Assembly (NCBI GenBank): GCA_949130485.1
Contig: OX422186.1
Coordinates: 5,055,792-5,119,791 of the forward strand
Length of the DNA: 64,000 nucleotides
Source of the DNA: Agelas oroides
Taxonomy: Eukaryota > Porifera > Demospongiae > Agelasida > Agelasidae
Direction: 5' to 3'
Shown here: positions 230 to 56,800 of the stretch, one piece after another
How the letters are laid out: each line of letters begins with the position of its first letter
Numbering within the stretch: the stretch's first letter is position 1
Notes under the pieces: model-generated
Told to the model about the DNA's origin: nothing
Database searches by the model: none
The model's input: the letters and a program-made list of their open reading frames with translations, nothing else
Translations under genes and position numbers: made by a program

Positions 230-1278
230 CTTATTTCCAAGCATCCATCTCAGCTTATTATTGCTTGCGGGAAAAAAGTCATTTTTACTGTGAGTGACAA
301 AGGCATGCAGGCTGTGGAATGGACCACTGCTTGGAGATCTGGTATCATTATGAGTTCAGAAATAGGTATTTGCAGCTATTTATTCAGTGAAGTGTAAGTG
401 GCTGATGTTACGTAACTCATGGCAATGGAAAAAGTTATAGCCCTGTTGCTTTCTATATCCACATGCCAACTAGGATTGTCAGGAGGCCAGAAACAATGCA
501 CATAGTTTCAGCTAAGCACAACGTACAGTCTTATTTCAATGCTTGCATGGGATGAGTGACGGTATTGACCAGTGATTTCAAGAGGCTGGCTATAGCTGGG
601 GTAAGGGAGAAGAAAATCTTCCTGTATTTGCCATCTAAGGAAAGCATTGGACATGTTTATGTGCAGGAAGTAGCAGAGTTTCATCCTAAAGATGCCAAAA
701 CAAAGGGAGGAGCTAAAGATGAAAACAGTGTTTCAAACAAGACCCTACCACTGCATGTGTCTAGGGTCTGCAGACCTCAACATTTAGGTTTGTGCACACA
801 GCACTGCATGCTTTCTCTACCCCTTGGGCTTACTGCACATAAACTGAATCTACCCACATTGTTGCATGTTCACCCTTTGCACTAGGCTAAGCTTGTGATG
901 CATGCAGCAATCCAAGAATGCTATGAAGGCTTATGGGATCTGGTGGATAATTGCATGAAGTTAGTGCAATCATTCATTTACAGACACTTCCTCCATGTAC
1001 CGTTAGGTGCATGCCCACCCCCAATTTTTATTGCCTAAGCTGTGCCCATGGGGACAATACAGTGTTATATATATATATGCAGCACACACGCCTTGATTCA
1101 GAATCATTGAACAACATCATTGCAGACTCAGAATGGATAATTATGACATCATTGCATCAGATTTCTGACCATTATGTTTACTAACATTTACAAAACCCTT
1201 GATTGTATCTCTCTTAGATTGCTCAAGGAGCAGCATTCTAGTTTAGAGAAGTATTCATGGCAAGAAGAGCAGCATTAA
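230..1278 (+). CDS. Possible 3' tail of an unrecognised multi-exon gene
   Basis: I do not recognise the product. Four short open blocks can be joined with consistent phases: about 230-365 (phase 1 donor AG|GTATTT), 557-600 (donor GGG|GTAAGG), 886-959 (acceptor CACTAG, donor AA|GTTAGT) and 1218-1278 (acceptor CTCTCTTAG, stop TAA at 1276-1278). The joined tail reads through LIIACGKKVIFTV, then LTSDFKRLAIAG, HAAIQECYEGLWDLVDNCMK and LLKEQHSSLEKYSW before the stop, which looks more protein-like than random frames. The acceptor before 557 has a poor pyrimidine tract. The first exons would lie before the window. The stop overlaps the start region of the next gene. Seen: open frames and splice consensus. 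Inferred: that they form one gene. The blocks could instead be chance ORFs in a 5' flank. Confidence 0.3.
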
Positions 1279-4200
1279 TGAGTCTGGAGCCTTATAGGCT
1301 AACTGGAGTTCAACTTACTGATCGGGAGTTGGGAGTAGGTGGTTCAGCAATTGTGATTGAACTTAAGTACATGGGAATGAAGTGTGCTGGCAAAAAGATC
1401 CATGAACACCTTTTAAAGTGTGGTGGTAGTGAGTACACTGATGTAACTCGTCAGTTCAGCAAGGAATGCCACATTTTAAGTAGAATCAATCATCAGCACA
1501 TTGTCCAGTTTCTTGGAGTCTATTTTCAAGATGTCAACATACCAATCCTAGTTATGGAGTTTCTTCCTACTAACCTTACTTCCTGCATTGAGAGACATGG
1601 AAATTTTCCAAATGAAGTGAAGTATTCCATCCTTCATGACATAGTACAGGGGTTACTCTATCTCCATAGCCAAACCCCTCCAATTATTCACCGTGATCTT
1701 TCTTCAAACAACATCCTCCTCAATCCAATTTTGACAGCTAAAATAGCTGATTTGGGTGTAGCGAGGATCTTGAATATGAGCCCTATTCAAGTGAGTACAA
1801 TGACACAGAAACCTGGTACCGATATATACATGCCTCCAGAAGCTATGGTAGCAGATCCACACTATAACACAAGTATTGATGTGTTTTCCTATGGAATTTT
1901 GATAATTCAGATATTTTGTGGCCAGTCACCTACACCCCATGATGGCCCAAATCGTTATGAGTCAGGTAGACTAGTTGCAGTCTCAGAAGCTGAACGACGG
2001 CACAAGTTTATTCGGGCCATGGGAGATGATCATCCTCTAATGAATGTTACTCTGAAATGTATTAGCAATAACCCTGATGAGAGACCTCACGCTAAAGAAA
2101 TAGTGAATGAATTAGAGGGATCAATCATTCAACCTTCTTTCAAGCAACGATTAGACACACTAAGGTATGTTGCAGTTACTGAAGCAGAGAAAAGTGTTTT
2201 GATAGGAAAAGATAAAGTTAAAGATCAAGGTAAGAAGACCACTATAAGTACTGTGCAAATACCAACAAAATACATGTGGATAGGATTGTTTGTAGCTTTC
2301 ATCTCGATCTTCATAGCATTTAATGTCGGAGTACAGAATGAGCGCAATCAAGCAAAAACAGGACCAATTTCTACCAAGGCACATGTTCACACAGAAATAA
2401 ATTCTGACTTTCTTCAACTTGCTCACAACTTTGTGAATACAACATTTGGAGAGTGTTCTGTTGGAGAGACAATTGTTTGTGATAGAGTGGTTCCAAGAGT
2501 ACTTCGTGACTTTGGCCAGATTTTGTGGATGAGGGGTAAGAATTTGCGAACTAGCATTTACCAAGGACATACAGTGGTAATTGGTGACAGAGTATATTAT
2601 GGAGGTGGTATAGCTGAGGAACAACATGAACACATTGTCTATTACTATAACATTAGATCAGATGATTGGACATCTTTGGATCCACTTCCCATAAAGTCGT
2701 TCGGCTTGGGAAAGTTCAATGGCAAACTGATAGCACTTGGTGGAATGACAAGCCAAGGTGAAGAAAATACCAAGGTGTACACATTTGATGAAGAATCAAA
2801 TTCTTGGATCAGTAGTGTGATTCCAACTATGCAAATGTCAAGAGTATTTCCTGAAGTCTTGAGTCTTCCGTCAGCATTGGTAGTTGCAGGTGGTCAATCA
2901 ATTCACTATTACAGGGATTATACTGGGTATTACTGGAAAAGATCAATAGAAGTTTACACACAGAAGACTGGATGGTACTGGAGCGATCAACCATTACCCG
3001 ATTCAGGCACAGACTTAACATTGACTGTATCTGGAAACAACTGCTTTGTTCTGATGGGTAACTACAGTAAAGCTCACATTTATTTACAATGGATAAGCCA
3101 TAAATCCCCTCTATCACTGTATGTACCCATTGAAAACATCTTGTGGGACAGAAACAAGACTGTACCAGGTAGGGCATATGAGTATCGTGACAAACTGATT
3201 TTTCCAAGTTATAGGTGGAAGCAGTTACCAGGAGGTAGGTCTAGTCAAGCAAGCAGTTTGGTAGCAACAGTGCTGGCTGGAAATCTCATAACCTTAGGAG
3301 CACAAAGGCAGAAAGATAGTTTTTTGAGGATGTATTCACTCACAAATGAATCTTGGAGTCAAATTAGCCAGCTCCCTGACAACTTGGATGGTGCCACAGT
3401 GGCAGCATTGTCTTCAACTGAACTGTTAGTCACTGGAAATAAGGAAAGTGGACTTCTGTCTGTATATAGAGGCTTTGTACAGATCACTCAAACCATCCCT
3501 ATACCTCCAGGTCCTATATCTTCAAATCTATTCAAGGCAATAAAACTTGTTGAGAGTAATGGCAACATAAATGCAGTAGGAGATGGAGGGAATGCTATAG
3601 GTCCATTCCAGATTCCAAAGCAATACTGGAAGATTGCAATAGATGTTGATCCTAGCTTGACTGCAAATGGAGAGACTTACCAGAACTGCAAAGGACCAGG
3701 AAGTGAACTGTATTCAATGAGAGTAATGCAGGTAAATCAAAGAAGATATATTCTTGCTCCTTATGTGTATGTGCTTGCATGCAAAATAATTTGCAAGGCG
3801 GTATCTACATCTACAATAATTAGTTATTTATGGTTGCATATGAAGAACAAACCTTGATGATGCTTCTGTAGCTTGTTGGTTTGATTAGGTGGCTTAGTGG
3901 TAACTAATTATCTCAGAAATCTCGGGATCAGGCAAATCCTACTTAGTTTCTATATATTTGCCATGGGTTTTTACTTACTTGCTTGGTGTTCTTAAACATT
4001 AATGATTTGAGATGTTTTTACATGTTTCTCATATCAGTGTTCAAATTGTGCATACATAATATTCAGTCACCATGTTTGAATTGACATTGCATTTACAAGT
4101 GCTCTGCTCACTTGCCGCCTTTAATGGTCCAAGCATACCACTATGTAGTCAGCCCACTCATTTTATTGATGTTTCTCACATAAGCTCTCTAGTTAACTAG

Positions 4201-4652
4201 ATAATTGGCTTATGAAGTATGGGATGTTTCTCACATAAGCTCTCTAGTTAACTAGATAATTGGCTTATGAAGTATGGACATAAGCTCTCTAGTTAACTAG
4301 ATAATTGGCTTATGAAGTATGGGATGTTGCTGAGTTTTCACCCAAACAAAATTTCAAGCAACCCCCTTCCCCCACCTAACATCAAAGTGCATGCATGTCA
4401 AATCAAAACTACGTAACAGTATGCATAATCTAAGACATAGTATTTTACTGTGCATACAATTAGGGAAATACAGATCATGCACACTTGTTTTTACTTATTT
4501 TACAGGCCTATATGAAGCACTTTGCTGCATCAAACAGGATTGGTCGAGATCCAACTCCTGAGGACTTGACAAGGATTCATAATGGTGGACCAGACGGATA
4601 CAAAAACAAGTTAACTGTCAAGTACTGGGAGAGAGTTAAGAAACACCTTTGA
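1257..4652 (+). CDS. TKL-like kinase / transmembrane / kelch / lysozyme-like fusion protein
   Basis: Two exons, 1257-3731 and 4506-4652 (phase 0, CAG|GTAAAT to TTTTACAG|GCC), give 873 residues. Residues about 20-290 are a protein kinase: glycine loop ELGVGGSAIV, lysine in CAGKK (46-47), HRDL (145-148), DLG in place of DFG (165-167), PPE in place of APE. One hydrophobic helix (WIGLFVAFISIFIAFNVGV, about 341-359) follows. There is no N-terminal signal peptide, so a type II topology with cytosolic kinase and outside C terminus is inferred. Residues about 400-750 carry kelch-like strands with paired glycines (YYGGGI, IALGGM, LVVAGGQ) and NxT/NxS sites. The C terminus is lysozyme-like: VESNGN with the candidate catalytic Glu766, VGDGGNAIGPFQI, YWK, and, only after splicing, ARIHNGGP-type RIHNGGPDGY and a YW near the end. 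Reading past the donor would destroy this domain, which supports the intron. Start could be M1 or M8 (1278). A strong internal donor CAAG|GTAAGA lies at 2230, just before the membrane helix. Confidence 0.85.
4168..4322. repeat. 55-bp tandem repeat, about 2.8 copies, inside the kinase-lysozyme intron
   Basis: Units at 4168-4222 and 4223-4277 are near-identical; a third at 4278-4322 lacks the first ten bases. Each carries the palindrome TAGTTAACTA. It lies inside the only intron of the kinase-kelch-lysozyme gene. Confidence 0.9.
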
Positions 4653-9646: not shown

Positions 9647-12600
9647 ATGGCGGAGCTGGAGGAGGATATCTGCGACTCTGACCCTTTGCAGGACTACCTG
9701 TTAGATGACATCGAGACTTCGGGCCGAGAGCTGGGCTCGGGCTCTTATTCATCCGTGTTGGAGATGCGCTACAAGGGCATGCGGTGCGCGGGGAAGAAAC
9801 TCCACAAGACGCTCTACGGTCATGGGGTTTCAATGGGGCCCGAGATTCTCGAGCGATTTGGGACAGAGTGCGAGCTACTCAGTCAGCTTCGCCACCCGCA
9901 CATTGTCCAGTTTCTGGGCTTGTATCTAGAGGACGGTTCGGATGTGCCCGTGTTGGTTCTGGAGTACATGCCTGTCGCTCTCACTGACTGTATAGAGAAG
10001 TACGGTATACTCGCAGACGAGATCAGCTATTCGATTCTTCACGATGTAGCACTGGGACTACACTACTTGCACAGCCACACTCCAGCCATTATTCATCGTG
10101 ATTTGACGGCTAACAATGTTCTTCTCACTTCCAACATGACAGCCAAGATTTCTGATCTTGGCATGGCAAAGATCCTCAACCTTGCCCCAGCAGTGATGAC
10201 GCAGCGAATGACCGTCTGCCCTGGAACAATCAGCTACATGCCACCAGAAGCACTGACTCCTAATCCACTTTACGACACAAAACTCGACTGCTTCTCATTC
10301 GGTGTTCTCATTATCCACGTTTTTTGTGGAGAGTGGCCAATTGCACTGGAGTACCTTCGACCTGATCCGAAAAACCCAGGGCATTATCATCCCATGACAG
10401 AAATCGAGCGACGTGAAAAATATCTTCGCAGACTTGGTGCCAAGCATCCCTTGATTGGACTGATCAAAAAGTGTATTGCAAATGTTGCCTCAGAACGTCC
10501 TAAAGCATCAGATATTCTGGCTGAACTGAGCCATGTAATATCCCACTTTCCAGCCTCTTTTGAAACCCGTATCGAGATGTTGAATAGGGTGAAGGTTGAT
10601 GCAGAGGAGAAAGAGCAGTTGAGATCCCAAGTTGAACAATTTCGAAAGTTGTTTCATGAAAAAGAGCATGAATTTGAGAACCTTTGCTTTACCTACAGCA
10701 CTGAAGTGGAGCACCTGAGGGAGCAAATTGCCAGATTGGAACAGTCATATGCAGTTCGGGAGGCCCAGATTGCTGAGCTCCACTCTGAGAACAATCGACT
10801 TCACTTTGCGCTGGAGCAAAAGGAGGAGGAGGTACAACTGTTGAAAAGGAGAGTGGACCACCTTGATCAAGAACTTCGAACGGCCCATGCATCATTTCAG
10901 GAACGAGCATGGGAGTCAGCACAGCGGCTACGGCAACTACAGAGCAACGTGGATGCTCGAAGCCAGGAGAGAGAAGCAGTACTTGAGAGGTACATACTTG
11001 TGCTCTATAAATAGGGGAGATCCCTCCTGATTATCTGGAACACAGGGTAGGGGCCGAGGAGAGATTGCCTGGGTCTATTCACATGCAAACTCATGTTGCA
11101 TGTATTAAGGGCAGTCACAATCCACTTACCATGTTCTCCTGAACTATGTGTTCAATTCAACTGTTACCTTTCAAAGTTTACGATTAGCAAGAACAAGTAA
11201 GAATCAGTTGGAATTCAGACCTGTAGCTTACATTCACTCCTTTATCCAGGATTTTACATGTAAGTGCCCAGTGTTAACATCTGACTAGTGTTCCCAGCAG
11301 TGGTTTAGTTTTCAGCACTTCTACCATTACCCATGAATGCCCTCTGTATCGGTGTGATGCACTGCAATGCTATGGCAAATTGCACAACTAACATTTCACA
11401 TTGTTGTGGAATTGATGATTGATGCGTTAGCATACCTATTGGGTGGCAGAATAATCAATATCTGGACACCATGTGTATTCAGACACCCATCGCAAGTGCC
11501 AAGGCTAGAATTTCGAAAAATGTCCAATGTTTATGAATTGTTTCTGACAAAGCTACATGTATGTCCAGCATTTTAGTATCATGCATTTTGAATGAATAAC
11601 TCAAATGGATTTCCCCGAGTTTTGCAATCTGCTGTGAAGGGCCATTTCCATCCTGCTAAATTCCAAGCATTCAATGTCGTACCTTTCCCTGCTGCTGAGT
11701 GAGAGGGTGGATGCTGTGCCCACTCTTTTTTTCATTGTATGCAAACAGTGGTAAAAGCAGCTACAATGACAAAACAAGCTTCCAACAGCTATGACATTGA
11801 CATTGACAAATTAAGAAGTTTGTGCAGTGTGCAGGTGTGGAGATATAGGAAAGCTAGTGTGATGTTTTGAGCACACAAAGGCCCATCTGTACGTTTCAAA
11901 CAAAGCTGTGTATGGTAATTGTTGATTCTAAAGCGGACAGAAAGTATAATGTCTGCCCATTGTTATTCAGGGCCTTGAATGGCCAAGTCTGTGCTATAGC
12001 AAACAAGCAAGCCTCATGCAGGTATCTTAATACATATTACGGCGTCTGTAAAATGTAGTGTGGGTTTTGGGTAAACTGAAACTGAGAGTTATTCAACTCT
12101 TTGTCAGTAACCAATGGCCCAAACTGTTAGGGCGAGTGTGAGTGATCCCTGGCCCCTCTAGAGCAAGATTGTGTTGTTCATGTATGATGTATGCTTGTTG
12201 TTTGTGTGCAACCGAAAATGTTTTCCACCAAAAGTGAGTGAATGTCAATGTCTGGATGGTTACTTGGAATTGCTAGCTACCTTAATGGCTGCATGCTTCT
12301 TGTGAGAGAGAGACTGTATGTGATAAGTGCTACTGCATCATTGCTGCTTGATAAGTCAAACGACTGCACTCGCAGCATGCATGGCAACTTATCTGCCTCT
12401 AGTTTCTTTAAACTGCCTCAAGTAAAGACCATGCATGGCCAACAAGCCTGCCTGCTTACTGGATACTACCAAGTTTACACTCTCTGCAGTCATGCCATGA
12501 TTTGACTGGGTGAAGTATGGCTAAGGCACTAGTATTGTCTATACACTGGCTCAGCCTCCCCACCTGCTTTGTCTAAGGTTGCCATGGTGATAAATTGGTG

Positions 12601-22904: not shown

Positions 22905-24760
22905 CATGAAGGAGCAGGTTGTTAGAGGCTTGCATGGTTGTAGTTACCAAACTATTTAATTTATCTATCTCCTCAGGAACCTTTCCTACCAAATGGAAAC
23001 TTTCCTCAGTTGTACCCATCCACAAATCTTCAGACAAGGGCAGTTCTAAAAACTATCGCCCAATATCACTGCTGCCCATACTAAGCAAACTTCTGGAGAA
23101 ACATGTTTATGGTCTACTGTCAAAACATCTACAACTTTCTGAACCAATTTATGATTCACAGTTCGGTTTCCAACAAGGAAAATCAACTACTACTGCTCTA
23201 TTGGAAACTACTCATAACTGGTTGCAACTGCTGGAGAGTGGGAGTGACGTAGGAGCCATCTTTTTCGATTTCAAAAAGGCCTTCGATTCTGTGCCCCATC
23301 GCGCATTGATAGACAAGCTTAAGGGTATCAATCTGAATCCTCTACTTCTGCACTGGATTCAGAGTTACCTCTCTGGCAGGAGTCAACAAGTCCTAGTGAA
23401 TGGGGAGAAATCGGACCCACTACCTGTATTGTCAGGTGTCCCTCAGGGGTCAGTCATTGGTCCTCTTTTGTTCCTGATATATATTGATGGCATCAAAACA
23501 ACCCCCCTATCTGGTGAAAGCCATCTAACATTATATGCTGATGATATGCTGCTGCTTTATAGACCAATTACAAGTATAGCTGATTTTGCATTGTTGCAAC
23601 AAGACATTGATAGCATCTCCGACTGGGTTGACAAAAACTATCTGCAATTTAATGTTCAGAAATGCAAATTCATGCACATAACAAGAAAGACCAAATGCAG
23701 TCAACCTGCTTCACACCTAACCCTTTATGGCCAGCCTCTAGAGAGAGTCAACACATACAAATATCTTGGTCTGTTGCTATCAAGTGACTTATCCTGGACC
23801 CAGCACATTAGTAACATATGTACTAAAGCTAAGAAGCTCCTTGGCCTAATCTACCGTCGTTTTTATATCAATTCTCTACTCCTGCGAGTCTCTTTCAGAT
23901 GTACATCTCGTTAGTCCGTCCCAATATGGAATATGCCAGTCAAGTATGGAGCCCATACAAAGTCGGAGAAGTTAATTCTTTAGAACATGTTCAAAAGTTT
24001 GCACTATGTATGTGTGCTAAATCTTGGGACACTAGCTACCAAGAATTACTTCAGTTGTTCTCCCTACCAGATCTCCAGCAACGCTAGCCTGGTACCCGGC
24101 GCGGAGGAAGAGTGCCTGGTGCACACTGATGCGCTTCCGGTTAATTAAAAATGGCGTTGCTCACGTTTATGACGTTCACACTGTTTAGGGGCGTGTGCTC
24201 TGACGAAATTTAAGTTGTAAAGATCCTACCGTGGCCCATTTAGCGAAAATGGCATCGTTGTGCCACCTTTGCGGATCCCCTGTGGCTTATAGCCACCATA
24301 GAGTAGCATTGTTTGGTAAGGCTAGCCAGGAAAGACTAGCATCAAGGATAAGCGCTATAACGTTGAACGATGACGACGGCTTACCGAATCTCATGTATGC
24401 GAAGTGCAAGTGGAGAGTTGAAAGTTTAGAGAACCATCGCTGAAGGGCTTGAGAAATCGCTTGCTGAAAATCAGAACTTTCATTACACGCCATTATATTA
24501 TCCTGACAAGTTTACTATATCGAGTCCGAACTCTGACGTCACATGACACGGAAGAATCAGAAAATAGTCCGGAGTCCCCACATCTTGGGGAGATTAAACG
24601 CATGCGCAAACAGTGTGTACCAGGCGCTTCTCCGTTTTTCGCGCGCGCCGGGGACGAGGCTACAGCAACGCAGGCTTTACCTGGATCTGTGTACAATGTT
24701 TACATTGAAATAATATTTGGTGTTTGTACACCAAACCTCTAGCATAACCACTCGTGAAGT
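22905..24760 (+). pseudogene. 5'-truncated, broken non-LTR retrotransposon (RT domain)
   Basis: Reverse transcriptase read directly: NYRPISLLPILSKLLEKH, QFGFQQGKSTTTALL, FFDFKKAFDSVPH, SGVPQGSVIGPLLFLIYI, LYADDMLLLY, then YKYLGLLLSSDLSW. This is CR1/jockey-type non-LTR RT. The endonuclease part is absent. Near 23870-23885 the frame shifts by one base: the sequence continues in another frame as LFQMYISLVRPNMEYASQVW. At 24084 it is cut by a 578-bp MITE and resumes at 24672 in register (LQQR then RLYLDLCTMF), with a further in-frame TAA at about 24709. It is closely related to the copy at 38.2-39.9 kb. Confidence 0.9.
24085..24662. mobile_element. 578-bp MITE inserted in the LINE, 9-bp TSD
   Basis: Left end TAGCCTGGTACCCGGCGCGG and right end GCGCGCCGGGGACGAGGCTA are inverted; subterminal CTGGTGCACACTG pairs with CAGTGTGTACCAG. 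The target duplication is CAGCAACGC (24076-24084, 24663-24671). Removing element plus one copy restores the RT frame across the site. Confidence 0.95.
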
Positions 24761-32200: not shown

Positions 32201-35200
32201 ATGACTGAGACAAAGTGCAAGCTAGATCTACTGGCAGCTTTTCGCGTAGCAAACGTAGCTGAAGTTCAAAGACTACTACCTCAACTCAAGAACCCAGCAG
32301 TCGTTAAAAATAACTGTTTTAAGGACGGGAAAACTCTACTCCACTACTCCTGCCGCCATGGCTGGCTGGACGTGACCAGGAGATTAGTGGAGCTCTACCG
32401 CTGTGATCCAGAGAGTACTGACAGGCTGGATGATACTCCGTTGCACGAAGCTTGTCGTAAGGGTCATGTAAGAATTGTGAGGTACCTTGCTGGTACTGGG
32501 TGTAGCACACAGTGTGAGAACAAGATGGGTGATACTCCACTGCATGAGGCTTGTTGTGAGGATCGTGTGGGCACAGTGAGGTACCTTGTTAGGGAACAGG
32601 GGTGCAGTACATTAATTCAGAACAAGAGTGGTGCTACTCCACTTCATGTGGCTTGTCGTAAGGGTCATTTGAATGTTGCAAAGTATCTTTTTGGTGAGCA
32701 AGAGTGCAGTATAGAATGCCAGGACAAGAATGGTAATACCCCACTACATGTAGCTTGTCGTGAGGGTCATGTGGACATTGTAAGGTACTTTGTTGGCAAA
32801 CATAGATGCAGTACACAATGTCAGAACAAGAATGGTAATACTCCACTGCATCTGGCAAGTTGTAAAGGCCACATAGGCATCGTGAAATACCTTGTTAGTG
32901 AATTGAGGTGCAGTACAGTACATTATGAAAACAAAAATGGTAACACTCCACTGCATGAAGCTTGTCGTAAGGGTCATGTAGACATTGTGAGGTATCTTAT
33001 TAGTGAACGGAAATGTAGTATAACACGTCAGAACAAGACTGGTGATACTCCACTGTTCGTTGCTTGTCGTGAGAATCACTTGGGTGTTGTGAAGTACTTC
33101 TTTAGTAAACAGCACCGAAGTATAACATGTCAGAACAAGGAAGGGAATACTCCACTGCATGTGGCTTGTAGTAAAGGTTATGTGGACATTGTACGGTTCC
33201 TTGTTAGTAAATGGAGATGTAGTACATCATGTCAGAATGAATTAGGTAATTCACCACTGCATTTGGCTTGCCGTGAGGGTCACATGGACACTGTGAGGTA
33301 CCTTGTTAGTGAACAGGGGTGTAGTACATTGTGTAGGAACAAGTGGGGTGATACTCCATTGCATCTAGCTTGCAGCTATAAACATCTGCATGTAGTTGAA
33401 TTTCTCCTAACTAAGAAAAACTGCAGTGAAGCTTGCAAGTCCAAGAACAATAGTGATGAAACTCCCCTCCACTACTGCTGCCATTATGGTTGGCTAGACC
33501 TGGCTAGGAGGTTGGTGGAGCAATACTGCTGTGATCCAGAGAGTAAGAACCGGAGGTGTGATACTCCACTGCATATGGCTTGTCAGAATGGGCATGTGGA
33601 CATTGTGCGGTACCTTGTTTGTGAACGAGGGTGTAATACTGCATCTCAAAACATGGGGGGTAATACTCCATTGCATATAGCTTGTAGCTATAAACATCGG
33701 GCTTTAATTGAAATCCTTCTTACTGGGCAAAACTGCAGTGTAGCTTGCGAATCTAAGGACAAAGATGGCAAAACACCTCTCCACTATTGTTGCCACCATG
33801 GCTGGCTGGATGTAACCAGGAAGTTGGTGGAGCAATACCACTGTGACCCAAAGTGCGAGAACTTGTGGGGTGATACTCCACTACACAAGGCTTGTTGCAT
33901 AGGTAATTTGGACATCGTGAGGTATCTTGTTAGTGAACAGGGTTGCAGTACAGCGTGCAAGAACAAGGATGGTATTACACCACTGCGTGAAGCATATTCT
34001 AAGGGTCATGTGGACATTGTAAAGTATCTTGTAAGTGAAGAGGGGTGTGGTGCAGCATGTCAGAACAAGGATGGTGATACTATACTACATGAGGCTTGCA
34101 GAGAAGGGCTCCTAGACATGGTTAAAGCCCTTGCCAGTGGACAGGATTGTGAGGTAGCATTTAACTGTCATAACAAAGATGGTGACACTCCACTGCATGT
34201 GGCTTGTCGTGAGGGTCATGTGGATACTGTGGCATACCTTGTTACTGAACAGGGGTACAGCACAGCATGTCAGAACAAGGACACTGATACTCCACTGCAT
34301 GTGGCTTGCAGGTGGAACAGGACTGACACCGTGCAGTTTTTGTTGTCCACTGGGAGAGTTGACCCATGGTGTAAAAATGCTACCAATCAAGTACCAGTGC
34401 AACTGACTAATAACTATGAAATATCGAAATTATTTGCTGGATTGACCAAGGGTAACTTGGAAACAGCCATTAAGATTTTCATCTTTGGCAATCCAGCTGC
34501 TGGCAAGAGTACCCTGGTAAAGATCATTGAGAACAAGGTGACTAGTCGGTTTGGAGCAATAGCAGGCCAGTTTAGAAATGTATCTGGTGTGAAGCTTAAG
34601 ACTGCTGGTATGAATGCAGTCACTCTTCAAAGTAGTAGATTAGGTGTAGTCACCATTTATGACCTAGCAGGTCAGTTTGAGTACTACTCCAGCCATGATG
34701 CATTGGTAGGGAATCTAATTTCTTCTTCGACTGCCATGTTCATAGTAGTAGTCAAGCTCAGTGAGAAAGAGGCTGAGGTGATCCAGACTTTGCAGTACTG
34801 GATATCCTTCATTGAGAACTGCTGCAGCAGAGTGGAGGCCATTGCCCACCTGGTGATCATTGGCAGCTGGGCAGACAAAGTAAAGGAAGCTGGAAAAAGC
34901 ACCGATCAGAAGTGGTCCAACATCAAAAAAGCTTGCATCTCCTTGAACAGTCCTCTAACTTTTGTAGGATTCACAGCTCTAGATTGTCGCAAACTGGCAT
35001 CTAGTGGGTTAGATAAGATCTGTAACATGATTGAATCCAGTTGTGCTACCCTAAGAGAAGCTGTGAAGCAAAAAGTGATTGTCTACCCTCACTTGTTACA
35101 TGATTTTATTAACACCAAGCTTAGTACCAAGGTTGTCTGCAGTGTTAAGGAGCTGTGTGCCCACATTACAGCAGAGGATAATGCTCTTCTCCCAACTGAA

Positions 35201-36655
35201 CCCAATCTGCTATCACCATTGCTGAGTAGCCTCAATGATGGAGGGCACCTGCTCTACCTTCCAAACAAGAAAGATTTCCAAGCAGGATGGATTGTTATCA
35301 ACAAGCAAGCTGTTCTGTCTGATATCAGTGGCACTGTCTTCGCTCCAGAAAACTTCAAACAGCACTATGACATAGCAACCAGTACTGGAGTTGTGCCAAA
35401 GTCCAAGATTGCTGGTGTATTTGCAGAAAAGTACGATGTTGACATGATCTTGTGTGTTCTAACTATTTTTGAGTTCTGTGAGGAGATAAAGGACTCTTTT
35501 ACCCTCTCACTGATAGCAAGCAGTGACCCTTTCGTGGAAGGTACTGCAGCTATGGCCATAAGTGATGAATCCACAGAGAGCTACTACTTTTTTCCAGCTC
35601 TAGTCCGAATAGAGCACCCGACGGATGTATGGCAGAGCAGTGCTCCTAGGCAGTACCGGTGTGGATGGTGTCTGCAATGTTCCAAAGAAGGGCAGCACCT
35701 TACCTCCCGATTTCTACATGTGATGCTCCTTCGCTTGGCCTTCTCCTTTGCCCTGGCCCCTGACAGCTCTCGGTGTGATGAAGCCTCACCTGTGCTGCAA
35801 AGAAGATGTGCCATTTGGAAAAATGGAATCCAGTGGTTAGGTCAAAATGGTGTTGAAACTATCATTGAGGTATCTGAACATAACAAATTGGTGCTAATAT
35901 TGATGTCGTGTCTAGAAGGAGAGGAGATGGCATGTGTTCAACTTCGTTCCTCACTTGTCTCAAAAGTTCTGGTAATAAAGGAAGAAACTTGTCCTCACAT
36001 ATCTACCACTGAGTTGTTGATTGATCCATCAAACTTGTCTTGCTACCCTCTCCCTAGTTCAAGTGAGCTGACACTCTATAAAATGGCAGATCAAGTTGTC
36101 AAAGCTATTAGAGAATGCAAGCCATGTGCAGTTGATATAACTGGTAGAAAGAAAATGATGCTAGACGATTGTTTACACTTTGAGCCATTCCACTGCATGC
36201 ATGTAAAACAGATCAGTACATTGTTTGATCCAGATTTGGCAGATCAAGAAGTTGATGATATCTTCCTACATGATCTAGCTACTGACATCTACCCCAAGTT
36301 GATGCAACAAGCCCCAATAAAAGTGGTGTTGCAAATGTTCAATATTATCAATGATTGCCTTTTTTACAACTATTGTGATCAGTTCCCTGATGAGAAGGAC
36401 AATCCAGCAATGAAATGCTTTCGTCTCCTTCTGACATGGAAAAATTGTGACACTGGTGGCAGCACATACCAGAGCCTTCGTACCATACTGGGCAAGTACA
36501 GTATCTTCTGTGGAAGAAACCCATTGGTAAGGACTTGCATATTGTTTCATTACTTGTCATTTGGACTTTATAAACACATACCAAAATATAGTGCATTGTG
36601 CTGTCGATGTTTTGGAAATAGCTGCAAAAAATGTACCCAGTACATTAGTTGCTGA
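32201..36655 (+). CDS. Ankyrin-repeat ROC-COR (ROCO-family) protein, first/only long exon
   Basis: The open frame is 1484 codons. Residues about 42-735 form some 20 ankyrin repeats with the core GNTPLHVACREGHVDIVRYL pattern. A ROC (Ras-of-complex) GTPase follows: P-loop GNPAAGKST (763-771), switch-II DLAGQ (821-825), and SWADK (889-893) in place of the usual NKxD. A COR domain follows (GGHLLYLPNKKDF, VINKQAVLSDISGTVFAPENF). The last third contains YFFPALVRIEHP and a death-like helical tail (NPAMKCFRLLLTWKN, STYQSLRTILGKYSIFCG). No LRR or kinase is visible, unlike LRRK. A donor TTG|GTAAGG at 36527 (phase 0) suggests coding stops there at residue 1442 and continues in an exon I could not find; the 43 residues beyond look non-conserved. 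ROCO proteins are cytosolic GTPases that dimerise through COR; a signalling or death role is inferred. Confidence 0.9.
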   Translation: MTETKCKLDLLAAFRVANVAEVQRLLPQLKNPAVVKNNCFKDGKTLLHYSCRHGWLDVTRRLVELYRCDPESTDRLDDTPLHEACRKGHVRIVRYLAGTGCSTQCENKMGDTPLHEACCEDRVGTVRYLVREQGCSTLIQNKSGATPLHVACRKGHLNVAKYLFGEQECSIECQDKNGNTPLHVACREGHVDIVRYFVGKHRCSTQCQNKNGNTPLHLASCKGHIGIVKYLVSELRCSTVHYENKNGNTPLHEACRKGHVDIVRYLISERKCSITRQNKTGDTPLFVACRENHLGVVKYFFSKQHRSITCQNKEGNTPLHVACSKGYVDIVRFLVSKWRCSTSCQNELGNSPLHLACREGHMDTVRYLVSEQGCSTLCRNKWGDTPLHLACSYKHLHVVEFLLTKKNCSEACKSKNNSDETPLHYCCHYGWLDLARRLVEQYCCDPESKNRRCDTPLHMACQNGHVDIVRYLVCERGCNTASQNMGGNTPLHIACSYKHRALIEILLTGQNCSVACESKDKDGKTPLHYCCHHGWLDVTRKLVEQYHCDPKCENLWGDTPLHKACCIGNLDIVRYLVSEQGCSTACKNKDGITPLREAYSKGHVDIVKYLVSEEGCGAACQNKDGDTILHEACREGLLDMVKALASGQDCEVAFNCHNKDGDTPLHVACREGHVDTVAYLVTEQGYSTACQNKDTDTPLHVACRWNRTDTVQFLLSTGRVDPWCKNATNQVPVQLTNNYEISKLFAGLTKGNLETAIKIFIFGNPAAGKSTLVKIIENKVTSRFGAIAGQFRNVSGVKLKTAGMNAVTLQSSRLGVVTIYDLAGQFEYYSSHDALVGNLISSSTAMFIVVVKLSEKEAEVIQTLQYWISFIENCCSRVEAIAHLVIIGSWADKVKEAGKSTDQKWSNIKKACISLNSPLTFVGFTALDCRKLASSGLDKICNMIESSCATLREAVKQKVIVYPHLLHDFINTKLSTKVVCSVKELCAHITAEDNALLPTEPNLLSPLLSSLNDGGHLLYLPNKKDFQAGWIVINKQAVLSDISGTVFAPENFKQHYDIATSTGVVPKSKIAGVFAEKYDVDMILCVLTIFEFCEEIKDSFTLSLIASSDPFVEGTAAMAISDESTESYYFFPALVRIEHPTDVWQSSAPRQYRCGWCLQCSKEGQHLTSRFLHVMLLRLAFSFALAPDSSRCDEASPVLQRRCAIWKNGIQWLGQNGVETIIEVSEHNKLVLILMSCLEGEEMACVQLRSSLVSKVLVIKEETCPHISTTELLIDPSNLSCYPLPSSSELTLYKMADQVVKAIRECKPCAVDITGRKKMMLDDCLHFEPFHCMHVKQISTLFDPDLADQEVDDIFLHDLATDIYPKLMQQAPIKVVLQMFNIINDCLFYNYCDQFPDEKDNPAMKCFRLLLTWKNCDTGGSTYQSLRTILGKYSIFCGRNPLVRTCILFHYLSFGLYKHIPKYSALCCRCFGNSCKKCTQYISC

Positions 36656-38153: not shown

Positions 38154-39870
38154 TTTTTTTTTTTTTTTTTTTTTTTATATATAAAACTTTATGCAAAAGG
38201 CAATGGATGCACAAAATAGCCATATGCTAATAAGGAGTGCACCCTGTTAAAGGGGGACAACACAAAAACGAACACAGCACTACAAATAAGACAAAAGGAC
38301 CAGGAGCAGTGAGCTATAAGTATATTATGTACAGGATTATAAAGAACTATAATTAACAATGTTACTCTTAAAATGCTGCAGAGGTAAGTTAACAACAGAC
38401 TCAGGAAGCAAGTTCCACGCATGAACAGTATGTGGCACAAATGAGTGAAAATATGCGTTGGTACCAGCAAATGGTTGTTGGAGCAGTAGTTGCCTGTTTG
38501 TACGCTGACTGTGATTTGGCCTTGTGGTGATCATATTGGGTGGGAAGAAGCATAAACCATGAACAATTTTGAACAACATGCACAGGCTGGCCTGAGCTCT
38601 TCTGGGTTCCAGGGCAATAATATCCGTCAATGACAAAAGGTCCTGGTAACCACTGTCCCAAGATCTGGTTGCCATACGTAATGCAAATTTTTCCACATCC
38701 TTCAGCTGTTTAATGTGTTTTTGCATGTATGGGTTCCACACTGGACTAGCATATTCAAGGTGAGGTCTAACCAGTGAGAGGTACAATTGGAGCAAGGTGT
38801 CTTTGCTGGCATTACTGTAAAATCTTCGATACAGGAGACCAAGAATCTTTCTGGCTTTTGAGCAGACAGAGTCTATGTGTTGAGAAAAGGATAAGTCACT
38901 AGCAAGAATCACGCCAAGATATTTGAAGCATTCTACCTGTTCTAGGGGTGTATCTCCGAGGTATAAAACTCCAGGATAAGTAGGCCTTCTTTTTCTAGAT
39001 ATCACCATATACTTGCATTTGGCAGAATTAAAGGTAAGATGGTTCTGTTGTACCCATTTGTCAATGCTTGAAATATCATCCTGTAAAAGTTGAAAATCTT
39101 CCCTTCCTTTGATGGTACGAAACAGTAGGAGGTCATCTGCGTAGAGAACAGAGTGACTGCCATTTGAAATGGGTAGGTATGTCAGGTCGTCAATATAAAT
39201 TAGAAAAAGAAGAGGGCCCAAAATGGATCCTTGGGGTACCCCAGATAGAGCATGCGAGTCTGATGAGCTTGATCCATTAACCACTACCATCTGCTTTCTG
39301 GAAGTAAGATAGTTTCCTACCCAGGCCAGGATGTTGATATTTAGACCAGTCTGTTGTAGCTTTTCCATAAGTACTTTGTGGGGAACAGAATCAAATGCCT
39401 TTCGTAGGTCAAAAAAGACAGCTCCGATTTCACTACCCTCATCAAGCATTCTCAGCCAGTTGTCAACTGTGGCTAGTAGTGCAGTCACTGTAGACTTCCC
39501 TGGCTGGAAGCCCCACTGAGAGTTTGAGAGAGGATGCATGATATGGAGATGGTCTGAGATAATATGATGAACATGCCGTTCCAACACCTTGCTCAGAATA
39601 CTCAAGAGAGAAATAGGCCGATAATCATTAGGGGTAGTAGCTTTTGATGATTTTGGTATTGGTACAATAAGAGACATCTTCCATTCTGTAGGTACAGTGC
39701 CAGTTTGGAGGGACAAGTTCATCAAAACAGTCACAGATGGTGCTATAGCACTAGCTGTAGCCTTTAGCATGTGAGCTGATATTTTATCTGGGCCTGTTGC
39801 CTTGCTAGTGTCCAAAGTTGACAGGGAGTGATAGATCTCATCGACTGAACACAAGTTGAGTGAGCTATAT
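38154..39870 (-). mobile_element. Non-LTR retrotransposon, 5'-truncated, RT frame intact
   Basis: A 505-codon minus-strand frame (39854-38337) covers the whole RT: DTSKATGPDKISAHMLK, NDYRPISLLSILSKVLERH, WGFQPGKSTVTALL, FFDLRKAFDSVPH, SGVPQGSILGPLLFLIYI, LYADDLLLF, then KYLGVILASDLSFSQH, LYLSLVRPHLEYASPVW and a C-terminal SFVPHTVHAWNLLP. The + strand T-run at 38154-38176 is its poly(A) tail. The endonuclease region is missing and an in-frame stop lies just before the frame, so it is a 5'-truncated insertion, recent enough to have no internal stop. CR1/jockey-type by sequence; same family as the 22.9-kb copy. Confidence 0.92.
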
Positions 39871-50824: not shown

Positions 50825-53800
50825 CTGCAGGTAGGTAAAAAGAGCATGTCATGAGTGTTGGCCAGATCCCACTCACCAAGTAAAACAGTGATTCATCAGT
50901 GAGGTGGCAAGCATAATAATATTGTGTCTTATATTATTACAGTGGAACCCTGCTTAATGGACACCTCTCAACAGTGGACACCCACGAAATAACAGACAAT
51001 TCTGAGAGTTCCAACCATTTCTCCATAGACATTAGAAACCCCTGAATAGCGGACACACCGCTACTCCATATAACGAACACTTTTCGCACTCCCAATTGTA
51101 CACGATTTAGTGGACACTTGTCGACCTTTTCACCAAGACTGTCCACCATCAATGCTGGAGTTAATAAATTGACACTAGATTAGCACTGTACTAGCCTCTG
51201 CTTAGCCTTCCTGCCAGCGTACAGCAAGGGAAAGCTCTGAAAACGTATGCTCAACAGCCTGATTACGCAGTACCACACCTACTGTAAATATACCAGAAAC
51301 CCCTGAGTTAGGGACACCTTGCTATAAATTGTTGGTCACAATGATGTCCGCTATAGAGGGGTTCCACTGTATATGAAATAATGTGCTCAGTGGATAAAGC
51401 AATGTGAGACATCTGCAGTCGGAAATGTAATACATTCTAGAGCCGGTCACTGAAATCTCTATAGCTCCTGCTGAGGTTCAATTGCGGTTCAAGCAGCATT
51501 CATTATTAATCATATACCTAGTATACAATAGCAAGCTTTTCAAACTTTGATATCTTATGTATGTGAGCATCAATGCATAAGATAGTTGAAACTAGAAAGG
51601 TATCAATTAAGAAGAAGTCAGACTTCTTCTTAATTGATACCTTTCTAGCTTCAACTATCTAGATTTCAAACAACATATACCCCATGTGCATGTTCACGTC
51701 CTGTAAAGTGGGTGACTTTGTAAACATCTAGGCCTACCTTTCTTCAGGGGGAAGTGGTTCATTGATTGCATTAAAACATACCAAGAGTTACCAATCCCAT
51801 TGTGGGAGAGCAATGGACCTCAGAATGGCACTACTAGACTAGTCTAGAGTTTTCTTCACTAGAATCATGCTTGGGGTCCAGTTCACACTAGCTGTCATTT
51901 GTCATACTGACATTGGTGTCTATGCAGTGTACAATGCTCAAAAGCGTGGTTCTTGCACATATGCACATGTGGAAAGAGTTTGGTCCCCTACTAGACAGAC
52001 AACATGAAATACTTGGCCCACTGTACACATGCACACATGACTGATGTAGGGCAATATAACAACATACAGTGACATGTAGGTTCACTCCCAGACCACACTC
52101 CTGTAGCTTGACATGTGCAATTAACGTCTCCCACCAGCTTGTAGCCTGGATTACAACTGTAGGTGGCTGTCAGTCCAAATGTTGTTCCATCAGTGTGACT
52201 AACTTGGCCATTGGCTGGGTTAGCCAGAGTGCCACAGTCTACAACTGTCAAAATGAGGAACATTTCCAGTATAGTCAAGTATATTACTTGATTGTGTCCA
52301 AAATGCAAGAAAAAATATCACTACACACTCCATATTCAGTCTGCATACTCACTCATGACAAGTTTACCCTGTTAATGCTCTGTCTTTGGTTTTGGTTATT
52401 TAACTCCCTATTGGCATGATTGCAGCAATTTACAAATAATCATGATTTTGGTACAGTGAGCAGTTGGTATAGATTAGTAGATGTATTTTGAAGCTGTGTA
52501 GGGAAGAATCCTATGTGTACAATAGAAGGTTGAGAACAGTGGACAGATGCATGACAGATGACATAGTTTTGAACCTGAGCTAAGTGAGTGAGATATGAAG
52601 GATCCTGACTGAACTCTGGCTACAATAGCCAACCCAGAGATGGAGTAATATCTCACTCACCACCAAGCCTGTGCAATAATTGGAACATTTAACCTGACTC
52701 TGAGGATAATCCAGACACTCCTGAAAATACAACATTTTCGGATGCAATTTGTACTGACATCAAGATTGGCACGGTAAATATTGAAATTGCTTGTTTGGGT
52801 GATTTTCCAAATAGGTGCCTATGTTACTTTCTGTAGGTCAGGATATTATTCCGATTTTTAATGATATTTTGTTGACAGGCTTGACAGACAGATGGATGCA
52901 AACGGATTGCTTACCCCTGCTATGTGCAGGCAAGCATGGGGTAACAATTCACACAAGTAAATGCCAGGCCAGAATGTGAATTAATAACTTGCTCACCAAC
53001 AGTTTTGGGAAAAGAGTTACTTGCAGGCATTAGTAGTTAATATGTTATAGGTGAAGCTATGTCTTGCTATCATGGCAGAATTCGATATCTTGCTCCTCCA
53101 TGTGGGTAGGGCCTTTCAACGCCAACATTCATGAACTATAGGTGTATTTTGTGTGGTTGAGTTTAACAACATACGTTGGCAGGTAGGTTCACTCCCAGAC
53201 CATTCTCCTGTAGCTTGACACATGCGAGTACTGTCTCCCAGCAGGTTGTAGCCTGTATCACAACTATAGGTGGCTGCCTGTCTGAATGTTGTTCCAGCAG
53301 TATGACTAACTTGGCCATTGACTGGGTTAGTCAGAGTGCCACAGTCCACAACTGTTGAAATGAGGAAAAGGAATACATCATGTACATGTATGTTACTGTG
53401 GTTAGGGTTCAAAATACCCAATGTGCATGCATAAAAAGCTTAGCCTACCATTCCATTAGCTATCAATGAACTATATAATTATCACTGCAGAACTAGAGGT
53501 AGTACAAAATTCCCACTGCACGCACAGCACACACAGTAGGGTAACAGAAACATATGTTGACAGCTGGTGCAGCTAGATTCCCTACTACACAGCAATGCTT
53601 AGCCCACTATGTCAACAATAAATTACATGTGAAACAAGGTAGGCCAAGATGTTGTACGAACATACGTTGACAAGTAGGTGCACTCCCAGACCAAACTCCT
53701 GTAGCTTGACATGTGCGAGTACTGTTTCCCACCAGGTTGTAGGCTGGATCACAACTGTAGATGGCTGCCTGTCCGAATGTTGTTCTTCCAGCATGACTAA

Positions 53801-56800
53801 CTTGGCCATTGACTGGGTTAGTCAGAGTGCCACAGTCCACAACTGTCAAAATGATAAAAGATGAATTCGCATACATGTATGTAAATATTCAGGCTAGAGT
53901 GTCATTCAGCACATAGCCTGTGTAAGGAGCTTACTTGCAGACAACAGTAGTTAGATGAAGTACATAAGTAAAGCTATGTTGTGCAAGATTGAAGTGTCAT
54001 GTCCATGTGAACAGGGCCTTTTAGCTACGCAAACATTGTCACGGAGCACCTTGGGGTGTGGTTTCATGATTGAGGTGAGCCTGAGCAAGCCTCACACCAG
54101 CAGGACTGCATCGTGCACGTGTGTGTATGTTTGCTTGCTTGCTTGCTTGGACCTACTACTTAATCCCTAACCAATTCATGTTATGCAGAACAAACTGGTT
54201 GGAATAAACGAAAATGTTTGAATGAAGTTGATTGTGAGAGACTGTATGTGAAGGAAGTTGCTTTTGAACCAGGCTTCCAAGTTAATACCAGTGGCTGTGA
54301 TTGCGTGGATGAAAATAGTTCTGTGAGTTTGCCAGTTTGTTATGTTGAGCATGTACCATTGGAGAGCTAGCAGTTGTGTAGATAAGTGAGGCTGTTCAAA
54401 ATATGCAGAGGGCAGCGTACTCTCGGTAGCTACACCCTGTTAAGCAAGAAGACAGAGATCTAGTAACGTTTCATTATAGCAGTTTTGTCCAACACTGTAC
54501 AGTGCAGGACCAATCACAGCACAGTATTTAATCTCATAAATGCTGATAACATTGCTTGAACAGGAAATTACAAGGTGTGAACCATGAGCAGCTGCTTTGT
54601 TAGACTTCACGTGATAGTCATTTCTAATGCAAAGTAACTATATGAAATTTGTGTGCAACAAGTGGCTACAATGCAAGTTACCCCGGCTCCCCTCTGTTAT
54701 TACAGAACAAGGTGTGGCTGTAGCGCGACTAAGTGTGGCAGAGATTCTCTTGCTAGCTTCATGGTTTGACTTTGAATGTGCTAGTTGAAGAGCCACGTAT
54801 TTAGCATGCATGTCTCCAAGTAGGGACTGGGCATGACAGGTGAGGCTGTGTTTCACAGAAAATAGAGGTCAAAGGAAGCTAGAACGTTCAGTCATACTTA
54901 ATGGTGGCTATCCAAGGAAGACAAATGGCTGCTGTTCCTTGCCTTGCATGGTAAGCTATTCTCTGCATTCATGACACTTCTTTTAAGGCTGCCTCATGTA
55001 AGAACTTGCATCTTGGGTCCACCCATGGCTGTATACAGTGACAAAACTTGCTGTACATGCATGGCATGTTAACTGTGACAAGCTATGAAATCTCCCAGCA
55101 ATGGGCTGTTTGTTCAGGCTCACCCCATCATCTGCTTAGTATACTTCATTAACAACATACGCTGACAGGTAGGTATGCTTCCAGACCACACTCCTGTAAC
55201 TTGGCACATGCGAGTGCTGTCTCCCACCAGGTTGTAGCCTGTGTTACAAGAGTAGGTGGCTGTATGTCCAAATGTTGTTCCAGCAGTGTGAGTAACTAGG
55301 CCATAGACTGGGTTAGTCAGAATGCCGCAGTCCACAACTGCATGTGGAATACATCATGTAAAAATAATCGATATGTGTGCTATACGTTAATATACACTGA
55401 CTAGAGTTGAATATATATATACCCAATGTGCATGCATAAAGAGGCTACCAACTCCACTACAACTTGGCAAGACAGGAGAACCTATGTATAGGGAGGAGCA
55501 ATGCACCCCAGGATCACAGTACCAGCCTGGTCTACAACTCTGTTTGGCTAGAAACATACTTGGGATCAAGCTTATACCATCATACCTCCTCTAGATGTTT
55601 GTGTTCACTATGTGTATAAGGTCTATAAACGCATTACACAATGTGCTTGTTGTGCATGTATGCAGATGTGTGTAGACTAAAGAGTGGGGTTCCCAAGTTC
55701 TTGGCTCATTGTGTACATGCACACATGTATGTAGGATAATAACAACTTACGTTGACACATAGGTGCACTCCCAGACCACACTCCTGTAGCTTGACACATG
55801 CGAGTACTGCTTCCCACCAGGTTATATCCTGTATTACAACTGTAGATGGCTGTCTGCCCAAATGTTGTTCTCCCAGTGTGGCTAACTTGGCCATTGGCTG
55901 GGTTACTCAAAATGCCACAGTCTACAACTGAGAAGTAGAGGAATACATGTGTTTAATACCCCCAAGATGCAAGAAAAAGGACCCACATAAATCATCAAAT
56001 TGCCCACCCTTACAAAAATGACACTGTGGTTTGAAAGCATTTTTCACAACTGTGCTGCGAAGGTAGTTCCAAAAGACACAAAGAAAGCTTCACCAGACTT
56101 AAAAAAGCCTTGGAAGGCTTAAACGACACCCCAGACAACAGAAGCTGCCAACAAACTTTTGTTATTCTCACAAAAAGTATGTACATACTAATGTATGGGG
56201 CTTTCCGTGTCTTTGGAAAAAGCCTTGCCTGGCAGAGTGTGAATTAACAGTCTTGTTCACCACCAACCTTGGCAACTTTAAAGAGCTAACTTGCAGGAAA
56301 CAGTAGTTATGTAAAGTATGTATACATCTTATGTCTTCCTATTCATTGCAGAAGTGTCATGTCTTGCTTTCTCATGTGGGTAGGGCCTTATATTTATGTA
56401 TAAAGTTCTGTGAGCATCTTCAGCTGTGATGTGGTTTCATGATATACTAGTAACTCAAGTGTAAGTGAGCCTCACACCCGTAGTATGACTATGAGTGAGC
56501 CTCATAGTACAACTGTGAGTGAGCCTCACACCCGTAGCATAACTGTGAGTGAGCCTCATAGTATGACTGTGAGTGAGCCTCACACCCGTAGCATAACTGT
56601 GAGTGAGCCTCACACCCATAGTGTAACTGTGAGTGAGCCTCACACCCATACTGTACATGTAACTGTGAGCGAGCCTCACACCCATAGCGTAACTGTGAGT
56701 GAACCTCACACCCATAGTGTACATGTAACTGCGAGCGAGCCTCACACCCATAGCGTAACTGTGAGTGAACCTCACACCCATAGTGTACATGTAACTGTGA

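Follow-up and report, generated by a model that had tools for sequence, protein, structure and literature searches.

In the type II membrane protein PGRP-LC of Drosophila, the ectodomain derives from a fold of peptidoglycan hydrolases (the amidase-type PGRP), and there is neither a kinase nor a kelch part. The destabilase/i-type lysozymes (PF05497 / GH22i) are small secreted enzymes, and classical receptor kinases have a signal peptide, an N-terminal ectodomain and a C-terminal kinase. In plants, receptor kinases with a GH18 (chitinase-type) ectodomain exist, and 91 sequences, with tobacco CHRK1, are described in PMC5485988. Kinases fused to seven-helix receptors have been reported in choanoflagellates and sponges (PMC12716839), and Kelch is listed among the Eph-like protein domains of unicellular relatives of animals in a figure legend that leaves the protein unspecified (PMC6993872). 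The gene considered here lies in a 64,000-nucleotide stretch of the sponge Agelas oroides (contig OX422186.1, here C4:5055792-5119791; the window, from now on) and is predicted to encode, in a single 873-residue protein, a TKL-type kinase, a membrane helix, a kelch propeller and a lysozyme-like domain. We give about an even chance to the reading that the product is a single-pass type II membrane TKL kinase, whose kelch and lysozyme parts, at the cell exterior or in the lumen of the phagosome, would engage the peptidoglycan of captured bacteria to switch on the kinase. The structure of the predicted protein is well supported, while its function is what we infer from it.

The comparison with the described systems gives a likeness and a difference in each case. 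The predicted type II topology and an ectodomain with a wall-hydrolase fold are shared with PGRP-LC, to which the sponge gene adds the kinase and the kelch part. Neither the amidase-type PGRP domain nor the GH18 domain was among the 15 Pfam families matched by the joined protein (both exons together). The CHRK1 ectodomain presumably sits at the opposite end of the chain from the sponge lysozyme. Like the CHRK1-type kinases, the sponge protein would have a polysaccharide hydrolase outside and a kinase inside (PMC5485988), but their ectodomain is of the chitinase family and without kelch, whereas here there are a lysozyme and a kelch part. With respect to classical receptor kinases the order is reversed, the frame opening at the kinase. 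The destabilase/i-type lysozymes are alike in sequence family, in the catalytic Glu/Asp and in the GPxQI-like and RIHNGGP blocks, but the sponge domain is without the disulfide framework and C-terminal on a membrane kinase. The original prediction knew of no described receptor of such layout. Indeed, no paper bringing together kinase, kelch and lysozyme was among the matches listed in the open-access literature, the coverage of which is incomplete; the plant GH18-ectodomain kinases are nevertheless a near precedent (PMC5485988). So, the layout appears unusual as a new combination, with kelch and destabilase, of known elements (hydrolase-ectodomain kinases).

The features of the gene, in window coordinates, are as follows.

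1257-3731, plus strand: exon 1, with start codon, kinase, helix, kelch and first 71 lysozyme residues (open frame of 825 codons; homology with a paralog on contig C7)
1320-2108, plus strand: TKL-type protein kinase domain, residues 22-284 (Pfam, PDB neighbours)
1392-1751, plus strand: span of the kinase catalytic residues Lys46 (1392-1394), Glu70, Asp147 of HRDLSSNN (1695-1697), Asn152 and Asp165 of DLG (1749-1751)
2271-2336, plus strand: predicted single membrane helix, residues 339-360 (hydropathy)
2436-2480, plus strand: predicted juxtamembrane outer stretch with sequon Asn394 and Cys400/Cys408 (alignment with the C7 paralog)
2493-3485, plus strand: kelch propeller, residues 413-743, one Cys (Pfam, alignment to kelch relatives)
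3519-3731, plus strand: Destabilase/i-type lysozyme domain, exon 1 part, residues 755-825, with Glu766 (3552-3554) and Asp776 (3582-3584)
3732-4505, plus strand: predicted phase-0 intron of 774 bases, with a 55-base tandem repeat inside at 4168-4328
4506-4652, plus strand: exon 2, with the last 48 lysozyme residues (RIHNGGPDGY) and the stop codon
4863-4868, plus strand: polyadenylation signal AATAAA

The 873-residue model is present exactly in the DNA, with exon 1 uninterrupted and no stop or frameshift in the 873 codons. A Pfam search of the model yielded Pkinase (1.5e-39), Kelch_1 (4.3e-8) and Destabilase (4.7e-10) in this order which, together with one strong helix, bears out the kinase-helix-kelch-lysozyme layout of the original prediction. 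An in-frame stop (TAG at 1239) stands shortly 5′ of the start codon. The homology of the C7 paralog DNA starts exactly at ATG 1257 and is absent from the 400 bases upstream, and the paralog has a stop codon immediately ahead of its own ATG; both observations support ATG 1257 as the start. The joint between kelch and lysozyme falls within the single frame of exon 1, and splicing is needed only for the last 48 residues. The splice sites agree with the consensus (donor CAG/GTAAAT, acceptor TTTTACAG/GCC, phase 0). The splice 3731/4506 is a predicted one, with support that is indirect, coming from intronless, gap-free paralogs: the residues VMQ/AYMKHF across it align without gaps with the contiguous VIQAYMDRYA (or VIQSYMNRYA) of three lysozyme genes of contig C8.

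Concerning the C-terminal domain, its proposed lysozyme-like character was confirmed. On the joined protein, Destabilase (PF05497) matched residues 760-871 with 40.2 bits versus a cut-off of 26.2, and the PDB neighbours of the whole domain, four distinct sequences, were all lysozymes (8bbu, 1.9e-13; 2dqa, 1.6e-7; 3ab6, 1.7e-6; 4pj2, 2.3e-6), which we take to be of the i-type, 8bbu being presumably that of a leech. Each exon piece alone matched all three C8 lysozyme genes (pairwise identities of 44–46% for exon 1 and 48–55% for exon 2), and no lysozyme was matched in PDB by the exon 1 piece alone. In the alignment, a Glu and an Asp of two solved lysozymes, a pair that we assume to be Glu18/Asp30 of the Tapes japonica lysozyme, stand opposite Glu766 and Asp776, and both residues are identical in 8/8 rows. 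When the set was widened to 18 rows, the Glu was found in all 17 covering rows and the Asp in 12 of them, the five without it being all prokaryotic. The Q-I and H-N-G-G blocks are also retained in the fusion domain.

The conservation of the Glu766/Asp776 pair would suit as well an interpretation with the same topology, in which the lysozyme, tethered to the membrane, is an active enzyme that digests or kills bacteria, and the role of the kinase is in trafficking or phagosome maturation and not in the sensing of wall fragments. In its favour too, two of the three C8 relatives look secreted, and sponges phagocytose bacteria (PMC11576321). However, this leaves unexplained the addition of the domain to a kinase-kelch protein whose kinase is more constrained than its outer part, as seen in the ratio of nonsynonymous to synonymous substitution rates (dN/dS, 0.20 for the kinase), and we consider it unlikely. 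Somewhat less credit still is given to the use of the lysozyme fold only as a lectin-like binder, with a receptor that recognises the wall without cutting it. Hydrolase folds are reused as receptors elsewhere (animal PGRPs), some neighbouring residues are altered (for example DLTRIHNGG instead of DIARIHNGG), and the five prokaryotic rows without the catalytic Asp indicate that loss of catalysis may occur in the fold; yet here both catalytic acids are kept along with the Q-I and H-N-G-G blocks. A receptor kinase that engages peptidoglycan through its lysozyme domain is the interpretation that we prefer.

Concerning the kinase domain, PF07714 (8.9e-34) was matched in addition to PF00069 (residues 22-284), and the catalytic set Lys46, Glu70, Asp147, Asn152 and Asp165 is complete. 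The closest solved kinases in the PDB comparison were TNNI3K, RIPK2, CTR1 and roco4, which we take to be members of the TKL group, and in this way the TKL placement of the original prediction was upheld. As to the kelch part, the alignment to kelch relatives spans about residues 413-743, and the GG-paired strands mentioned in the original prediction are evident over the first half and faint over the second, only two stretches passing alone.

The hydropathy of the helix (mean of 19 residues) was 2.27, and that of the C7 paralog 2.15, to be compared with a maximum of 1.45 among eight frames of family genes (four kinase, four kelch); of ten further kinase tails, one reached 1.69 and nine were at ≤1.13. 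Among the kinase and kelch relatives compared, the helix form was found only in this gene and the C7 paralog, with just 32% identity between both helices and hydrophobicity retained. No N-terminal signal peptide is present and the frame opens at the kinase, because of which a type II topology is the simplest reading. The kelch part contains only one Cys in 331 residues (0.30 per 100), as compared with a mean of 2.90 and a minimum of 1.97 per 100 in 23 distinct kelch relatives (fetched loci with matches of ≥250 residues, leaving out five loci with the two helix-bearing genes); a Poisson estimate for one Cys or none was 7e-4. As a control, the kinase half was not depleted of Cys (2.0 per 100, versus a mean of 2.57 and a minimum of 1.81 in 14 relatives). 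The kelch part has three sequons (0.91 per 100, versus an average of 0.40 per 100), which is a weak sign, and the sequon Asn394 and the pair Cys400/Cys408, just C-terminal of the helix, are common to the C7 paralog. The Cys depletion, the sequons and the shared Asn394/Cys400/Cys408 fit an oxidising outer space. So, the proposed split, with the kinase inside and the kelch and lysozyme parts outside, obtained support that is indirect, from the kelch Cys depletion, the kinase control and the sequon and Cys pair shared with the paralog. The same data make very improbable a fully cytosolic protein, in which the hydrophobic stretch would be no membrane helix and the lysozyme domain, inside along with kinase and kelch, would meet muropeptides in the manner of NOD-type receptors. 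That possibility would agree with RIPK2 being among the closest solved kinases and with no clear helix in the other family frames examined, but not with the hydropathy of both helices, the Cys-depleted kelch or the shared sequon and Cys pair.

The whole genome (259 Mb, 141 contigs) was searched for relatives of both halves of the protein, and the family counts that follow are lower bounds. With the 534-residue outer part, 81 of the 417 candidate places were scored, namely this gene (two), the three C8 lysozymes, the C7 paralog and 75 kelch stretches with 24–37% identity. With the first 451 residues, 94 of 583 were scored, among which only this gene and the C7 paralog (C7:9850062-9851432) matched over the full length, helix included; the other kinase places, at least 92 with more distant kinases included, extend no further than residue 334 and do not reach the helix. 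A kinase match was found in 7/32 kelch-match loci, many of the others covering only about 1.5 kb upstream. The kinase stands upstream of the kelch, on the same strand and in a separate frame, in L042, L048, L050, L051, L057 (two genes) and L058, while three loci of 10 kb each (L054, L055 and L056) contain kelch without a kinase match, from which it follows that members of the kelch family also exist outside the kinase-kelch genes. These kinase-kelch genes of the same genome (the C7 array and others) are alike in having a homologous kinase (≤51% identity, apart from the C7 helix paralog) and kelch (24–37%), but their kinase and kelch frames lie at least about 1 kb apart, a coiled-coil-like tail, recognised by eye in the family kinase frames examined, follows the kinase in place of the helix, and there is no lysozyme.

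In the C7 paralog, a single frame (553 codons) covers kinase, helix and the first kelch part, and stops follow in the remainder. This paralog was tested as a second carrier of the lysozyme, but the best match in the 18 kb around it was at E 0.93. A kinase tree of 16 rows joined the two helix-bearing kinases as a pair (100/100), outside the clade with the C7 array genes. Probably, the helix form split from the kinase-kelch genes and lost the intron between the parts, and then this copy carried or gained the lysozyme, an order of events that we infer. Versus the C7 paralog, dN/dS was 0.20 for the kinase (289 codons), 0.41 for the outer part (182 codons) and about 1.0 for the helix (22 codons). 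By this comparison, kinase and outer part are under purifying selection, although some substitutions of the outer part may postdate the breakage of the paralog. In the helix, the pattern (hydrophobicity kept, identity not) is as expected of a membrane anchor, though 22 codons are few. A young or decaying chimaera of little function, perhaps seldom transcribed in full, is an improbable explanation: this is the sole four-part copy, its C7 paralog is interrupted and the second kelch half is hard to recognise, but 873 codons are intact, splice sites are of consensus, AATAAA is present, the kinase is constrained and the active sites are kept.

As regards the function of a membrane-spanning receptor kinase, the N-terminal TKL kinase would lie in the cytosol and, past the single helix, the kelch and the destabilase-type lysozyme would face the extracellular space or the phagosome lumen. 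There, the lysozyme domain would engage, and probably cut, the peptidoglycan of captured bacteria, and the kelch propeller would space or pair receptors, or bind a partner. A repeating polymer such as peptidoglycan could cluster several receptors, the kinases of which would phosphorylate each other and switch on, so that the animal would detect bacteria with the same enzyme that digests them. For a phagocytosing filter feeder, the advantage would be a kinase engaged by the very wall polymer that its lysozymes digest. A more specific proposal is that of a working lysozyme as bacterial sensor, the cutting or holding of peptidoglycan driving the TKL kinase and the destabilase fold having been recruited, within sponges, onto an expanded kinase-kelch family; this we regard as possible, at a lower probability than the general reading. 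PMC4557011 names as an open question the way in which sponges distinguish food bacteria from symbionts, and a kinase carrying its own lysozyme would be one concrete candidate molecule for this discrimination.

Several observations weigh against that interpretation. The exon pieces of the lysozyme, taken apart, score under the Pfam cut-off of 26.2 (exon 1, 16.4 bits, E 0.011; exon 2, 21.9 bits, E 2.1e-4) and, because of this, the Destabilase family call needs both exons. The classical i-type cysteine framework is missing, with one Cys (Cys811) in the domain, and consequently the domain is classed with the destabilase superfamily, as one poor in Cys, and not as a classical i-type lysozyme. The kelch part is diverged, with Kelch_1 at 1.2e-9 and two stretches on the ectodomain, versus 1.1e-25 and four stretches in a C7-array gene, and single-sequence AlphaFold of this part (window 2337-3506) gave a predicted local distance difference test score (pLDDT) of 32, too low for a usable fold or a blade count. 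The charges flanking the helix are +3 (inside) and +2 (outside), and the charge rule yields no clear orientation. The four-part layout occurs once in this genome, the C7 paralog being broken late in kelch and having no lysozyme match in the surrounding 18 kb. As a limit on any strong claim, the layout is known from one species and in one full copy.

Destabilase is found at four loci of the genome, namely this gene and the three tandem C8 genes (10218745-10223867), which are 46–49% identical to the fusion domain and have no intron within the domain. An apparent short signal-peptide exon was read by eye upstream of the first and third C8 genes, the products of which look secreted, and none was recognised for the second. 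In the 10-kb locus L012 (C8:10218001-10228000), long tandem repeats, also seen by eye, separate the three genes and may have driven their duplication. Between the fusion domain and the C8 genes the synonymous change is saturated (proportions of synonymous and nonsynonymous differences, pS 0.71–0.82 and pN 0.34–0.39), so no usable dN/dS was obtained for the fusion domain versus these genes.

According to a 2026 paper, early-branching animals are without lysozymes except the g-type, save for one Suberites i-type sequence, which might be contamination or a secondary acquisition (PMC12855814). The destabilase genes described here bear on that statement concerning sponges other than Suberites (PMC12855814). 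The four loci are placed on two contigs as large as 12.6 and 10.4 Mb, and this, along with the predicted intron, the fusion to a kinase with many kin in the genome and the signal-peptide exons (2/3), speaks against contamination. The sponge destabilase genes, without the classical cysteine framework, may represent a separate acquisition.

Relatives of the domain were found by tblastn in ten prokaryote loci (27–47% identity) and in 7/50,697 phage records (around 33% identity), all of them Cellulophaga phages; none of 16 pattern matches in viral contigs was confirmed as a close domain relative, and no close relative was found in the plasmids searched. These Cys-poor lysozyme-like proteins of Verrucomicrobiota and other prokaryote metagenome-assembled genomes (MAGs) and of Cellulophaga phages are of the same family but, differently from the sponge gene, the domain is alone or nearly so in the frame. 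In an 18-row tree (four sponge, ten prokaryote, one phage and three solved animal lysozyme rows) 4/15 inner branches were well supported, the fusion domain was not grouped with the three C8 genes, and descent from prokaryote or phage relatives was left unresolved. On a 5.5-kb contig labelled as Euryarchaeota MAG (L014), a label that may be wrong, there is a gene for a destabilase-like protein that appears to have a signal peptide; it is 47–50% identical to the fusion domain, with Glu and Asp at an equal distance. Lysozyme-like proteins of around 33% identity are present in the Cellulophaga phages Calle (L001) and phi38:1/phi40:1 (L002, which is phi40:1). The Calle records annotate them as lysozyme, whereas those of phi38:1/phi40:1 give hypothetical protein; the full-length phage protein gave only a weak SLT match in Pfam.

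Concerning the neighbourhood of the gene, the 10 kb directly upstream of the window (L013, C4:5045792-5055791) contain, on the minus strand at 5481-2373, NLR-type gene pieces a few kb from the kinase-lysozyme gene, with NACHT matches in two frames and a stretch resembling NLRC4_HD2 that falls just short of its cut-off. Within the window, 9650-11008 (plus strand) encodes a second TKL kinase of the family, 46% identical and with a long coiled-coil-like tail, and that exon has no kelch, helix or lysozyme. A frame of 1476 residues at 32225-36652 (plus strand) has ankyrin matches in 17 stretches and a GTPase domain resembling Roc, the Roc match being just at its cut-off, with no kinase in the frame. 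Two mobile-element reverse-transcriptase frames (RVT_1) lie at 22910-23909 (plus strand) and 38343-39869 (minus strand), and no RNA family of Rfam was found within the window. At 52000-59600 (minus strand) there are repeated similar exons resembling sushi (CCP) domains, one tested (7.6e-13) and the others seen by eye. Elsewhere in the genome, two of four peptidase pieces showed the Ser-for-Cys active site CGASYAFS, which we take to be silicatein-like and a mark of a siliceous sponge.

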